Source: Methylobacter sp. (GTDB lineage: Bacteria; Pseudomonadota; Gammaproteobacteria; Methylococcales; Methylomonadaceae). Taken from it: a DNA stretch of 64,000 nucleotides. The stretch covers positions 1 through 64,000 of the forward strand of contig JAUYMY010000007.1 of NCBI GenBank assembly GCA_030699385.1, given 5' to 3'. Below the pieces are notes generated by a model. The model was not told the origin of the DNA, ran no database searches, and worked only from the letters and a program-made list of their open reading frames with translations. Shown here in pieces: positions 5,633 through 49,026 of this stretch. Within the stretch, counting starts at the first letter, position 1; each line of letters starts with the position of its first letter. Made by a program: the position numbers and the translations under genes.

Positions 5633-6955
5633 TTAAGATTTGAAATAGCGGTCGGTTTCTTCTTTCACCACATTGGACAAAATTAACAGGCCTATCAAAT
5701 TCGGTATGGCCATCATGCCGTTCATCAGGTCGGAAAAATTCCAGACAAACTCCAAATTCATCATGGCGCCAATTAACACCACTGCGATAAACAAAATGCG
5801 ATAAACACGAATGACGCGCGCGCCAAACAAATATTCAACCGCTTTTTCGCCGTAATAATTCCAGCCAATCAGCGTGGAATAAGCAAATAGCGCTGTTGCA
5901 AGCGCCACAATCAGTTTACCGGTGACGCCCAAGGTTTCAGCAAAACTGGCGCTGGTTAATTGCCCCGCATCAACACCTTGCGTCCAGGCGTTTGCGGTCA
6001 AAATAACCAACGCCGTTATGGTACAAACCACCAAGGTGTCGATAAAAGTTTGTGTCATGCTGACCAAGGCTTGTTTGACCGGATCATTAGTACGCGCTGC
6101 TGCGGCGGCAATCGGTGCTGAACCTAAACCTGATTCATTGGAAAACACCCCGCGCGCAATACCAAAACGCATGGCGGCCGCGATAGTTGCGCCAGCAAAA
6201 CCGCCGCTAGCCGCTGCCGGCGAAAAAGCATGTTGAAAAATTAATGCGAAGGCATGAGGAATTTCGGCGGCATTGAGCACCAGTACTACCAGTGCCGAGC
6301 CGACATAGCCGATAATCATAAACGGCACCAAAATTGAGGTGAATTTACCAATGGTGCGGATACCGCCCAAAATCACCAAGGCGGTTAATACCATCAATAT
6401 AAGGCCAGTTACCCACGGTGCTATTTGGAATGTGGCCTCGAAAATTTTGGCGGTGGCGTTGGCCTGTGTCATGTTGCCGATACCAAAAGTCGCCAGCGCG
6501 GTGAACAAGGCAAAAAGCCAGCCCAGTTTCGGTAATCCGGCGCCTTTCGCCAGATAATACATAGGGCCGCCACGCATACCGTGTTCGCCTTTTTCGCGGT
6601 ATTTAACCGCCAATACCGCTTCGGCATATTTGGTGACCATGCCTACCAAGCCGGTCATCCACATCCAAAATACCGCGCCCGGCCCGCCCAGCGTAATCGC
6701 CGTGGCAACGCCGACAATATTGCCAATGCCTACGGTGGCGGCAAGTGCTGTCATCAGCGCTGCAAAATGGCTGATATCGCCTGCATGACCATGATCTTTA
6801 TGGAAAATCATCCGCAAAGCCAACGGCAATACCCGAAATTGCAAGCCTTTCAACAACACGGTCAGATAAAGCCCGGTGCCGACCAATAAAGTCAACATCG
6901 GCGGCCCCCAAACCCAACCGGACAGCGTTGCAATCAGTGTTTCAAAAAAATTCAT
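5633..6955 (-). CDS. Sodium:alanine/glycine symporter, AGCS family
   Basis: [22 protein letters not shown] and [28 protein letters not shown]. Confidence 0.93.
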
Positions 6956-7065
6956 GTTTTATCGTCTCCGTTGTTTTTAAAAATAATAGAGGATGTCCCC
7001 TATTAAATTCCCGGTCTAAAAATGGCGGTCGTATTTTGCGTTCGCCCTAAAATGGTCAGGGCAGA

Positions 7066-7383
7066 TTAATCATCCACCCATTGACCTTTAGCCGATCCAT
7101 AAACTCGAACGCCCAGTAATCCACCTGGAAACCAAAGCTGATAGTCGTCTTGGGATAGTGAGTAATGACAAATGTCAGAGCCTTCAACCTTGATGTCTGC
7201 AGGCGAAGCAGGATGGCGTCCATGCTCTTTATGGTAGGCAGCAATCGCCAGCACCACCTCATCGCAGATTTTTTGCCGCTCAGATTGCATAAGCCACATA
7301 GAGGAGGCATTGGCTAAAGCCCAAACAAATAAGCCGCAAAATAACCAAAAAATCGCCTTGCCGACTAATTTAATAGCTTTCAT
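7066..7383 (-). CDS. Hypothetical protein with N-terminal TM/signal segment
   Basis: 105 aa; overlaps the upstream ORF by ATGA, suggesting coupling. Confidence 0.5.
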   Translation of the reverse strand: MKAIKLVGKAIFWLFCGLFVWALANASSMWLMQSERQKICDEVVLAIAAYHKEHGRHPASPADIKVEGSDICHYSLSQDDYQLWFPGGLLGVRVYGSAKGQWVDD

Positions 7384-7625
7384 GAGTGAATAGTTGGCTC
7401 ACAATGAAGTTCTATTAACGAATCTATCGATGATTGAATCCATATTGGCGGCTCGGTTTTGCTGATTTCGGTGTCGCCCAGCTTTAATTCCAACGGCCCA
7501 AGCGCCGATGTCCAATTCAATTCGGCGTTGACTTGTTCTAATTGTTCCAAATGCGCCAGCAATTCCAGTAAATCCGTCTGATTAATGTTTTTTTTAAATT
7601 TTCTCATTTTTATAACACGATTCAT
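7380..7625 (-). CDS. Hypothetical protein
   Basis: 81-aa ORF coupled to the 105-aa ORF. Confidence 0.4.
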   Translation of the reverse strand: MNRVIKMRKFKKNINQTDLLELLAHLEQLEQVNAELNWTSALGPLELKLGDTEISKTEPPIWIQSSIDSLIELHCEPTIHS

Positions 7626-7655
7626 TTCCCAATTTTAGGCTTTTTAATCAGTGTG

Positions 7656-45219: not shown

Positions 45220-45365
45220 TCAACCCATAAATGCAACACCGAGCAAATTGCCGGTATCAAGCCCGGCCATTTTACAAAACACCTCCCAAGGTGTTTTGTG
45301 GTTTAAGGCTTTTCTAGACCTATGGTTAAGCCCCGCCAAAGCTTTGTTGGCATCGGCTTGGGTCA
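45220..45365 (-). pseudogene. IS30-family transposase C-terminal remnant
   Basis: LTQADANKALAGLNHRSRKALNHKTPWEVF: C-terminal LNxRxRKxLxxxTPxEVF pattern. Confidence 0.7.
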
Positions 45366-45367
45366 AT

Positions 45368-45519
45368 ATGTCTCGCTCCCAAGCTCCAGAGGCTGTGAAA
45401 GTATTATCAAAATCACTAGAAAATGCGCTGTAAGTCATTGATTATTGGTTGTCGAAATTGGCAATTCCGCCTAATTTCAGAATACTTTCACTCTCTCTCT
45501 GGAGCTTGGGAGCGAGAAA
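45368..45519. repeat. MITE-like element with ~35-bp inverted repeats, abutting the IS30 remnant
   Basis: tctcgctcccaagctccagaggctgtgaaagtatt ... aatactttcactctctctctggagcttgggagcgaga. Confidence 0.75.
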
Positions 45520-45939
45520 CTACGGGGCAAGTAGGCCGACACCGACACAGACCGCGCCTGCCGCCACAATGGCTGTCCATCCGGATGAAGGTCGTGTCTC
45601 AACCACGGCGATACTCGGATTTCCTGGATCGTAATAGACGCTTACCTTGCGACCAACAGGAAAGACTTCCGCAAGAAGTTGTTCTTTCGCAGGAGAGTTA
45701 TCTCTTACACCAAAGGAAAACTGCCCAGAAGAGAAGTTGTCGCCGTCAACGACGTAACTGTATTTGATTTCTGCGCTAGAGCCACCGTCGTGGGGATCAA
45801 CAACGACATCGGATCTGGTTATCTCTCCTTCAGTCGATGGCCAGGAGGCAGCCTTAGCATTCATGCGGCGAAGAACAAGACCGAACAGAACCAGAAATGC
45901 GCCCAAGAGAAGAAACGTGATTCGTATGACTACCATCAT
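45520..45939 (-). CDS. DUF3592 domain membrane protein (integron cassette gene)
   Basis: Two TM segments flanking IKYSYVVDGDNFSSGQFSFG...GRKVSVYYDPGNPSIAVVE; starts 22 bp after attC 1. Confidence 0.75.
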   Translation of the reverse strand: MMVVIRITFLLLGAFLVLFGLVLRRMNAKAASWPSTEGEITRSDVVVDPHDGGSSAEIKYSYVVDGDNFSSGQFSFGVRDNSPAKEQLLAEVFPVGRKVSVYYDPGNPSIAVVETRPSSGWTAIVAAGAVCVGVGLLAP

Positions 45940-45961
45940 TTGAGTGCGCTCACTTTGCAGA

Positions 45962-46019
45962 CGCCCAACGTTTGAATTAAGGCGTGCCGTTAGGCGTCCC
46001 GCTTGAATGATAGGTTAGG
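45962..46019 (-). other. attC recombination site 1
   Basis: On minus strand: ACCTAAC ... GTTGGGC (RYYYAAC ... GTTRRRY); stop TAA of the flanking ORF lies in the core site. Confidence 0.75.
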
Positions 46020-46515
46020 TGTTGTTTCTCTTTGCAAGGGCATTCTCGATTTCGCTCAATGCATTGTATTCCTTCTTTTCGATATCAGAGCTGATCAATT
46101 CAAAGTCCTCCGGCACTGGAGTTTTAGCGTTCGGAAACTGCTGCCACTCATGAAGAGCTTTGTTATAGAGGGCTTGTTTGACGCAATAGCGAACCGCCTT
46201 TTCATGTTTTTCGTCCTGAAAGTTGTTTGCCATAGCATCTTCGCGACGCCAGCAGGCGGCAAGCAACCAGTGATGATAAGCAAACTCGTATTGGGCGGTT
46301 GTATGATACTGCCAAGCGTGCCGCTCAAGCCCGTGGTATTCAGTGTTGTTCTTGGCGGGTATTCGTGAATCGATGACATCTGGACGATGGGAGGCCCAAG
46401 GGTATTCATTGCGCATGCAGGGAAATAACGACGTAATACCTCCCGCGCCCGCAAAGTGTAGCTTCAAAAATTGATCGACAAGTGCGTCGTAATCAGGTTT
46501 CCATTCAAATTGCAT
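46015..46515 (-). CDS. Hypothetical protein (integron cassette gene)
   Basis: 166 aa; start 17 bp after attC 2, stop within attC 1. Confidence 0.65.
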   Translation of the reverse strand: MQFEWKPDYDALVDQFLKLHFAGAGGITSLFPCMRNEYPWASHRPDVIDSRIPAKNNTEYHGLERHAWQYHTTAQYEFAYHHWLLAACWRREDAMANNFQDEKHEKAVRYCVKQALYNKALHEWQQFPNAKTPVPEDFELISSDIEKKEYNALSEIENALAKRNNT

Positions 46516-46531
46516 AGCAGTAACCCACGAT

Positions 46532-46653
46532 ACCTAACGTAGAGCTAAGGGGCATGCCGCTCACGGACGCTAAACGAAGCCCCAAAGTTTGATAAATTAC
46601 AAAACTTTAAAACCGCCATGAGGCGGCACGTCCCTTTGAGCGCCATGTTAGGC
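46532..46653 (-). other. attC recombination site 2
   Basis: On minus strand GCCTAAC...L-box CTCAAAGGGACGTGCCGC paired with CTAAGGGGCATGCCGC...GTTAGGT; extra-helical base on the L'' side. Confidence 0.85.
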
Positions 46654-46896
46654 CTGCTTTAATGGCTCAGTAAATACGCACACTTTGTGTGCGACATGGG
46701 AACCCTCGATTTCCCAAAAGATATGCTGTATGTCTTTGATGCGCACGCTCTTATTGGTATCACTGAGATTCATTGAGGCACCATGAATGGCATCTCCAAT
46801 GTTCATCCCCGCAAATGGCGTACTGCTTTCGTAGGATGCAGCCACGCAAGAGCTATCATCTTGTTCATAAATTTCAAGGTGGTACTCGGTTTTCAT
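46648..46896 (-). CDS. Hypothetical protein (integron cassette gene)
   Basis: MKTEYHLEIYEQDDSS...FTEPLKQA*; stop TAA embedded in GCCTAAC of attC 2. Confidence 0.65.
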   Translation of the reverse strand: MKTEYHLEIYEQDDSSCVAASYESSTPFAGMNIGDAIHGASMNLSDTNKSVRIKDIQHIFWEIEGSHVAHKVCVFTEPLKQA

Positions 46897-46947
46897 ACAT
46901 GTTCCTTTTTGAGTTTGGTGCAACTTTGTCACTGGTTGAAAAGATAA

Positions 46948-47037
46948 GCCTAACGTAGAGCTAACTGGGCGCGGCACGGAAAGCTGAAAAAATAAAACCG
47001 CATTGTAACCGCGCTCCGGTTGAGCGCCATGTTATGC
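46948..47037 (-). other. attC recombination site 3
   Basis: + strand GCCTAACGTAGAGCTAACTGGGCGCGGC...GCGCTCCGGTTGAGCGCCATGTTATGC. Confidence 0.8.
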
Positions 47038-47048
47038 AAGCTATGCCG

Positions 47049-47423
47049 TCATAGACAAAATACTTTTTCGACCCATTCATCATGCTCAAATGGCCCGTGT
47101 ATTGATTTAAAGCAACCACGACTTTCTTCAATATTTCTGTTTAGGTCAGTGGCAACCCAGTCAACAGTACAAATGACTTTATTTGCTTCTAGGATTACAC
47201 CCTTGATGATGCCAAGGTGAAATATTTTAATGCCAGTTTGACCTCCGCCTTTCATGCGTTTGATTGCAATTCTGTCACCAGCCTTCATTTCTGATGCTTT
47301 TTTATACTGAGCGGGTTGATCATCTTCTTCCCAGCCAAGCATCCAAATACCTTGCTCAATAAATTTCTGGTCTTGATGCTCAACACCACCCCATGAAGCA
47401 CCAACAACCCAATATTTTGACAT
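47049..47423 (-). CDS. EVE/PUA-like small protein (integron cassette gene)
   Basis: MSKYWVVGASWGGVEHQDQKFIEQGIWMLGW...MKAGDRIAIKRMKGGGQTGIKIFHLGIIKGVI...VDW. Confidence 0.6.
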   Translation of the reverse strand: MSKYWVVGASWGGVEHQDQKFIEQGIWMLGWEEDDQPAQYKKASEMKAGDRIAIKRMKGGGQTGIKIFHLGIIKGVILEANKVICTVDWVATDLNRNIEESRGCFKSIHGPFEHDEWVEKVFCL

Positions 47424-47445
47424 TTACTTCTCCATTTATTTCATT

Positions 47446-47568
47446 GCATAACGCAAAGGTAAGGGGCGTGCCGCCAACGGACGCTTAGCGAAGCCGCCGA
47501 ACCCGATTAAAAAGCCAACCTTTAAAACCGCTAACGGGCGGCGCGTCCCTTTGACCGTTTTGTTAGGC
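47446..47568 (-). other. attC recombination site 4
   Basis: + strand GCATAACGCAAAGGTAAGGGGCGTGCCGCC...GGCGGCGCGTCCCTTTGACCGTTTTGTTAGGC. Confidence 0.85.
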
Positions 47569-47580
47569 CAAAAATGGATG

Positions 47581-48246
47581 TTAGACCCGGCCACTGGTAG
47601 CCCCACGCCGCAACTCTGATAGCTCTGGAATCTTTTCTAAAGAAGCGATTGACCGCTCTACTACTAGCCAGAAATAGCTCGCAACATTCAGTGTCAGAAG
47701 TAAGTCTGCGTTTGGAACCTGACCTTCTGGAACGTTCATAACTCCCTTTTCTATGAGGTGCTTGAAGGGAGCCTCATATGATGACCCGTCAAGCGTCATG
47801 CCCAGAAAGCGGCCATTATCTGTATTCCAGAAATGAGTGAATTTAGTTGTGCGCCCGTGTGCAAGTTGATTTCTTAGTTGGAACAAAATGTCCAACGTTT
47901 TCCAATCCTCGCCAATCACTTTTGGAAACTCGATGCCGTAGAGTGTCCGCAGCCACTTCTTCCAAGTGTCTAACCCTGTCGCGCGGCTCACGTCTTTCGC
48001 AATAACTTCCATCAGACGCCCCTGAAAGCCCTCATCTTGTGATGCTTTTGATGTGCACCACAGGTTGGAGAACTCTTCCAAAACTGACTCGAAGTAACAA
48101 GCGGAGGCAAGTATTGCAAAGTAGTAAATGCCTGGGTTGTGGTTTTCGCTACTGAGAGCATACTTAACAAAATCAGCGACATGTTTCGTCATGTCGCCTA
48201 GAACAACGCCGGATGCTACTGGAATGTTTTGTTTAGGTGATGTCAT
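47581..48246 (-). CDS. HEPN-like protein (integron cassette gene)
   Basis: 221 aa, helical, with LRNQLAHGR (Rx4H motif). Confidence 0.55.
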   Translation of the reverse strand: MTSPKQNIPVASGVVLGDMTKHVADFVKYALSSENHNPGIYYFAILASACYFESVLEEFSNLWCTSKASQDEGFQGRLMEVIAKDVSRATGLDTWKKWLRTLYGIEFPKVIGEDWKTLDILFQLRNQLAHGRTTKFTHFWNTDNGRFLGMTLDGSSYEAPFKHLIEKGVMNVPEGQVPNADLLLTLNVASYFWLVVERSIASLEKIPELSELRRGATSGRV

Positions 48247-48256
48247 ATTTCTGTTG

Positions 48257-48350
48257 GTCTAACGTTAAGTAGACACCTAAGTAGGTGTATATTAAATTTA
48301 AATTACCGGGGTATGGTGGTGTATAATGCCGCTTCGGTAATCTGTTAGGT
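48257..48350 (-). other. Degenerate attC (or attI-like) site 5
   Basis: GTCTAAC at 48257 and GTTAGGT at 48344 with inner attaccg/cggtaat repeat; 11 bp from the HEPN-like start codon. Confidence 0.45.
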
Positions 48351-48676
48351 TGGATTCTATGGTAATTACATTATTGATAGCAACCTTTTTATGCAAAATA
48401 CAAATACACCTCCTAAGTTCGGCAATTCTCATTATGGAATAATATATTTTAATCAAAGTGTTATAAATTAAATTTTCTGGTTTGTTTTTCATTTTACAGA
48501 ATTCTATTTTTCATAGGTTCAGTATCTATTTGATGTTATTTAAATTTCCATAATGGGAATTGCTGCTATGCCTTGCGCTAATTGTTCGCAAGCCTTGTTA
48601 TGCGCTTCTCTAGCTTGTTTTAAGGCTATTTCTGGAAAATAACATCCCTTAATGATCATGGCATGTAAAAAATAAA

Positions 48677-48725
48677 GTCCACGAAAAGCACGAAAATTTC
48701 GTGGCTTTCGTGCTTTTCGTGAACA
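48677..48725. repeat. Family A intergenic palindrome
   Basis: gtccacgaaaagcacgaaaatttcgtggctttcgtgcttttcgtgaac. Confidence 0.75.
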
Positions 48726-48871
48726 ATTTTTGGTATTTCTTTTTCAGGAAATAGCCTTATAGCTGTATCTGATAGGGGTATGGCGGTATTTTTTTTGACG
48801 GTTCAAAATATACCGTCATATATGCCGACATAACCGGTTGTCAACGTATTTTGACGTACTTCGATGGGCAA

Positions 48872-48939: not shown

Positions 48940-49026
48940 TGGTACCGAGGGCCGGAATCGAACCGGCACGATGTCACCATCACCGGATTTTGAATCCGGC
49001 GCGTCTACCAGTTCCGCCACCCCGGC
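48940..49026 (-). tRNA. tRNA-Leu (anticodon CAA), CCA encoded
   Basis: GCCGGGGTGGCGGAACTGGTAGACGCGCCGGATTCAAAATCCGG...GGTTCGATTCCGGCCCTCGGTACCA. Confidence 0.95.

Follow-up and report, generated by a model that had tools for sequence, protein, structure and literature searches.

Cassette arrays that stand without an integrase gene raise the question of whether they were assembled apart from any integron or were left behind by one. The array considered here lies at 45.5-48.25 kb of the window, by which we mean the whole 64-kb stretch of DNA that was analysed, and which forms part of contig C79 of a 3.57-Mb draft genome (G000; 84 contigs, 87.8% complete). We conclude that it is very probably a small chromosomal integron whose integrase was lost in place, and that it has kept its attI site, four attC sites and five minus-strand cassettes (Table 1).

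Two covariance models, both trained only on sites outside the window to avoid circularity, were used to search for attC sites. The training set of R1 consisted solely of the attC sites of contigs C70, C22 and C29 of the same genome, and that of R2 of short attC sites of congeners plus one site from contig C69. A covariance search had been named as the check on the original prediction, and both models recover its four clear attC sites at essentially the predicted positions, with the short site at 45963-46020. All four score on the plus strand with either model, which makes the plus strand the bottom strand of attC, with the array read from the minus strand, as had been proposed; the five minus-strand ORFs are likewise present in the ORF list. 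R2 identifies no further attC in the 64 kb, and the remaining R1 matches are weak, on the reverse strand, and lie on palindromes of two of the four sites. An Rfam search returned no attC match in the array region.

The sites carry the paired R and L boxes of attC, with extra-helical bases that set their orientation. The 5' core and the R'' box of the same cassette pair perfectly in three of four cases (GCATAAC/GTTATGC, GCCTAAC/GTTAGGC and ACCTAAC/GTTAGGT) and with one mismatch in cassette 1, and the cassette boundaries are circularly consistent. Bottom-strand folding, the other proposed check, gave a divided answer: the three longer sites show the expected arm pairing, only one of them clearly beating its shuffles, and the short site taken alone shows no arms and folds weakly. 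The attC of cassette 3 has a 95% identical copy at C70:25779-25899. Similarity of attC sites to those on Methylomonas and Methylobacter plasmids makes a methane oxidiser of the Methylococcales the probable host.

Table 1. Features of the integron remnant and its flanks (window coordinates).
Feature	Position	Strand	Basis or remark
MITE-like repeat, 21-bp perfect inverted ends	45371..45517		Abuts cassette 5 stop codon; similar copies (82-85%) on other contigs
Cassette 5 ORF, 139 aa, DUF3592, attC lost	45520..45939	-	PF12158, E 3.7e-14
attC of cassette 4, short type	45963..46020	-	R1 20.3 bits (E=0.01); R2 37.9 bits (E 1.8e-7)
Cassette 4 ORF, 166 aa	46015..46515	-	ORF list; no family match
attC of cassette 3, 122-bp type	46532..46653	-	R1 67.6 bits; R2; fold
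Cassette 3 ORF, ~82 aa from ATG at 46896	46648..46896	-	ORF list; no family match
attC of cassette 2, 90-bp type	46948..47037	-	R1 91.9 bits; R2
Cassette 2 ORF, 124 aa, widespread cassette protein, possibly EVE/YTH-like	47049..47423	-	Homology; low-confidence model
attC of cassette 1, 123-bp type	47446..47568	-	R1 57.1 bits; R2
Cassette 1 ORF, 221 aa, probable HEPN protein, R-x4-H motif (RNQLAH)	47581..48246	-	RTasHEPN, E 4.2e-4
attI core (GTCTAAC on plus, i.e. GTTAGAC) and palindromic ACACCT..AGGTGT element	48257..48292	-	Homology; family conservation
Candidate array-directed promoter (inferred Pc), TTGCTA-18-TAGAAT	48354..48383	-	Blocks conserved, spacer variable
intI remnant, start codon and codons 1-9 (MQNTNTPPK)	48391..48417	+	Frame matches IntI codons 1-9
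Insert with 18-bp inverted repeats (arms 48422-48439 and 48546-48563)	48418..48571		Interrupts intI; limits approximate
Separate MITE, right of the integron remnant	48621..48759		Dozens of copies in the genome

A probable fifth attC had been placed at 48257-48350. This segment reaches only 5.4-5.7 bits with the filters off, and both models and its homology to the attI of intact integrons rule it out as an attC. In local BLAST searches of congeners, a window segment of 158-161 bp is 88% identical to sequences in G011 and G009 and 80% identical to one in G026, and all three lie directly upstream of intact integrase genes. Beginning at the core (...CTTAACGTTAG), the alignment crosses the intergenic region and enters intI. 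By homology, then, 48257-48350 is an attI, with its core at 48257-48263. The family alignment also contains a putative Pc, whose consensus-like boxes are conserved around a variable spacer.

The divergent intI reading frame of the window breaks after codon 9, at an inverted-repeat insert present as a single copy in the genome; the intact IntI of G011 has 324 aa (MPNTNTPPKLLDQVRDRIRVKHYS...). The rest of intI and a target duplication of the insert were sought and not found, and the loss could have been an insertion followed by a deletion or a deletion alone. Contig C79 encodes no IntI and the window contains no integrase ORF. The claim that no tyrosine recombinase ORF stands beside the array thus holds for the window ORFs, yet intI codons 1-9 remain. 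The complete integrons of congeners (G011:C41 and G009:C1) are like the window in attI (~88%), intI start and attC families, and differ in having an intact IntI of ~324 aa.

The array had been classed as a CALIN, which is defined operationally by at least two attC sites and no neighbouring intI (PMC9024848). In this sense the label stands, as the window array has four close attC sites by two models and no neighbouring intI, and IntegronFinder would be expected to assign it. The array also keeps an attI and the very 5' end of intI, neither of which the definition requires and both of which attI-blind tools would miss, so it is not a detached cassette cluster. Set against a complete integron, it has the attI, by homology, and an intI cut after codon 9. 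With attI and the start of intI kept and the body of IntI gone, the locus is an integron in which the integrase gene underwent deletion in situ.

From the anatomy of the locus and the occurrence of cassette 2 elsewhere, the cassettes would have been gained, while intI was still present, by IntI-mediated attI x attC recombination. Of the intI gene only codons 1-9 survive, ending at the insert, and the array, lacking IntI, would be frozen in cis. The cassette genes are probably driven by the predicted promoter in the retained attI-intI' segment. Cassette exchange may still be possible if IntI acts in trans, as the unlike first genes at orthologous integrase-less attI sites of congeners suggest.

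A very unlikely alternative is that the array is a detached CALIN, built by one-by-one insertion at a secondary site or moved as a whole by rearrangement, so that an integrase was never present there. Synteny is indeed broken at the array and repeats flank it: yfcH and queA were not found as neighbours in congeners, and an ancestral empty-site comparison is therefore impossible. A detached array would, however, have neither an attI nor the first nine intI codons, which here are rightly placed and oriented, and this largely refutes the idea. It is possible that the whole integron was relocated, before or after intI was lost.

Among the flanking sequences, window positions 45220-45370 resemble, by eye, the C-terminal end of IS30-family transposases (HKTPWEVF), with no Pfam or NCBIfam match. 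The 3' end of tRNA-Leu(CAA) (48940-49026) is duplicated 6-8 kb away in G011 (L098, C18) and G009 (C91), an island-like arrangement. A genomic island at this tRNA was not adopted for the window, where the 3' end is unduplicated.

It is very unlikely that the loss of intI is unreal, the product of faulty assembly of a complete integron at a repeat. The junction does fall at the inverted-repeat insert, in a draft of 84 contigs, but the insert is single-copy, the contig runs on to its right into tRNA-Leu and queA, and the body of intI is on no other contig. Furthermore, the near-closed genome G019 (3 contigs) has a stub attI, at least 10 attC candidates and no IntI over the cut-off; with G019 in the same state, the integrase-less stub is not merely an assembly artefact. 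That the sites are chance inverted repeats between ordinary genes is refuted. The short site by itself indeed folds no better than its shuffles, but the R1 E-values of the three longer sites (5e-21 to 4e-12), the R2 E-values of all four (≤1.8e-7) with none else in 64 kb, the occurrence of near-identical sites in many dozens of family genomes and the circularly consistent cassette limits all stand against it.

Among the cassettes, cassette 1 probably encodes a HEPN protein, by profile match and motif; no homologues were found in 201 family genomes, and a structure prediction made without homologues (pLDDT 46.5) was set aside. Cassette 2 shares 97% DNA identity with a gene in another genus (G104), where the attC core differs (window 46948-47452 versus L173:5085-5619); the same ORF with unlike attC cores implies that cassettes can exchange their attC sites. 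Relatives of its protein (77-92% aa identity) occur in Chromohalobacter, Photobacterium, Psychromonas, a Methylococcaceae MAG and a Verrucomicrobia MAG, and a 95% identical one is encoded on the conjugative Shewanella baltica plasmid pS22301. The structural model of this protein (pLDDT 55) matches modified-base readers of the EVE/YTH type (2p5d, E=1.1e-3), and the protein, which is spread over several orders, is possibly such a reader. Cassettes 3 and 4 gave no family match. The leftmost cassette, cassette 5, is without an attC of its own.

The window is not the only integron locus in this genome. The search for intI and further arrays that the original prediction had suggested yielded 15 significant R1 sites genome-wide (eight on C70, three on C79, two on C69 and one each on C22 and C29) and no IntI above the family cut-off in this 87.8% complete assembly; an intact intI could possibly lie in the missing ~12%. 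Contig C70 carries a second integron with a different attI, eight attC sites and an intI stub of ~54 codons, which is 87% identical to the IntI of G022 and G031 and ends at a repeat element (C70:22967-23037). A third remnant, on C69, has a frameshifted long-type IntI, readable from residue ~173 onward and divergent from at least three attC sites (L020:4870-6208 and 6676-7647). The three intI genes of C79, C70 and C69 are each broken differently.

Contig C70 also carries a gene for an OXA-198-family class D beta-lactamase (L017:12745-13542) beside its last detected, partial attC. The product is 89% identical in amino acids to OXA-198 on Pseudomonas and Citrobacter plasmids, and the gene may be an environmental relative of a clinical carbapenemase cassette. 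Two kinds of repeat are associated with attC loci in this genome. A REPIN-like repeat of ~105 bp with GTAG heads lies inside attC half-sites (L018:97-210 and 1553-1661 on C22, and C70:28568-28671); of the four genome copies most like it, three lie at attC sites, by target preference or by chance. A palindromic repeat of ~70 bp, with only a handful of genome copies, lies beside three attC loci (C70:22967-23037, where it abuts the intI stub, L019:9136-9206 and L018:1-27).

Across the family, a probe consisting of attI and intI codons 1-9 matched 39 of 237 genomes, often at two or three loci per genome. IntI is uninterrupted at nine of the 43 loci examined, damaged at two (L212 and L219), and reduced to a stub beside attI at 32. 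Recognisable IntI sequence ends by about residue 40 in 29 of these 32 stubs, and L213, L217 and L220 keep further pieces. By their right flanks the stub loci represent 27 contexts, and no intact congener integron was found that shares a right flank with a stub. On a tree of 37 modules, the presence or absence of the IntI body requires at least eight changes, and well supported branches force four of these, which indicates repeated loss of intI. Mean majority conservation, with one representative per context, is 0.84 at the attI core, 0.94 at the -35-like block, 0.85 at the -10-like block and 0.65 in the spacer. It falls from 0.84 at intI codons 1-9 to 0.53 at codons 10-22, a fall partly built in by the end of the probe at codon 9, just as loci without attI are invisible to it; the choice of probe affects neither where the junctions lie beyond codon 9 nor the contrast inside the probe. 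On the simplest reading, erosion would have spared a promoter that it pays to retain.

Orthologous copies of one stub locus occur in G001, G009, G011 and G021, with right flanks 84-90% identical over ~900-1500 bp and an intI junction common to all copies. Among G001, G009 and G011, the first 330 bp to the right of the attI core are 71-83% identical, and to the left of the core the sequences are only 26-38% alike, which is the level of shuffled sequences (means 29-32, maximum 41). The unlike ORFs start 13-22 bp from the attI core, and attC sites were detected in only some of the first-gene neighbours. Another locus, with weaker data, gives 64% on the right (first 330 bp) and 29% on the left between G003 and G005. 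Because the intI junction is common to all copies, the change of first genes came later than the loss of the integrase. The exact change at the attI core points to an IntI that acts in trans; homologous replacement is also possible.

The element in the window is itself of a kind already known, and the interesting part is the pattern across the family. CALINs were about as numerous as complete integrons in one survey (PMC9024848), integrase pseudogenes made up about one third of intI genes in another (PMC2426708), and IntI activity is costly (PMC3510236). Xanthomonas has lost intI repeatedly, and its CALINs can be mobilised in trans (PMC12444791). Those integrons, with inactivated or deleted intI, are like the present ones in being chromosomal and in their repeated loss across a genus; they differ in that the Xanthomonas platform has a single position, beside ilvD, whereas attI modules here occur at many places, several per genome. 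The delta-attI gene cassettes of mobile integrons (PMC12901181) likewise involve attI-type sites outside the usual intI-attI arrangement, but in those a partial attI serves as the cassette's recombination site, whereas here attI stays at the head of the array. In the open-licence PMC articles searched we found no description of attI being kept time and again, at many places, beside a short intI stub, or of unlike first genes at an orthologous stub.

The origins of CALINs are mostly inferred, and here the route can be read in one locus, in which attI was kept and the integrase was cut at its start. Since this attI family is recognisable by sequence, it can be asked whether integrase-less platforms are dead fossils or are loaded in trans, and whether their promoter is under selection. 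One answer, which we offer tentatively and hold to be rather doubtful, is that integrase-free attI platforms, each with an array-directed promoter and a short intI stub, form a recurrent and selectively maintained class, several per genome, that would capture and swap cassettes through IntI acting in trans, so that integrases are shared and arrays distributed. The question matters for the persistence and movement of cassette reservoirs, in a genome whose C70 integron has an OXA-198-like gene. The survey suggests that orphaned attI sites are common in the family, and recombinases from other loci may still supply them with cassettes.
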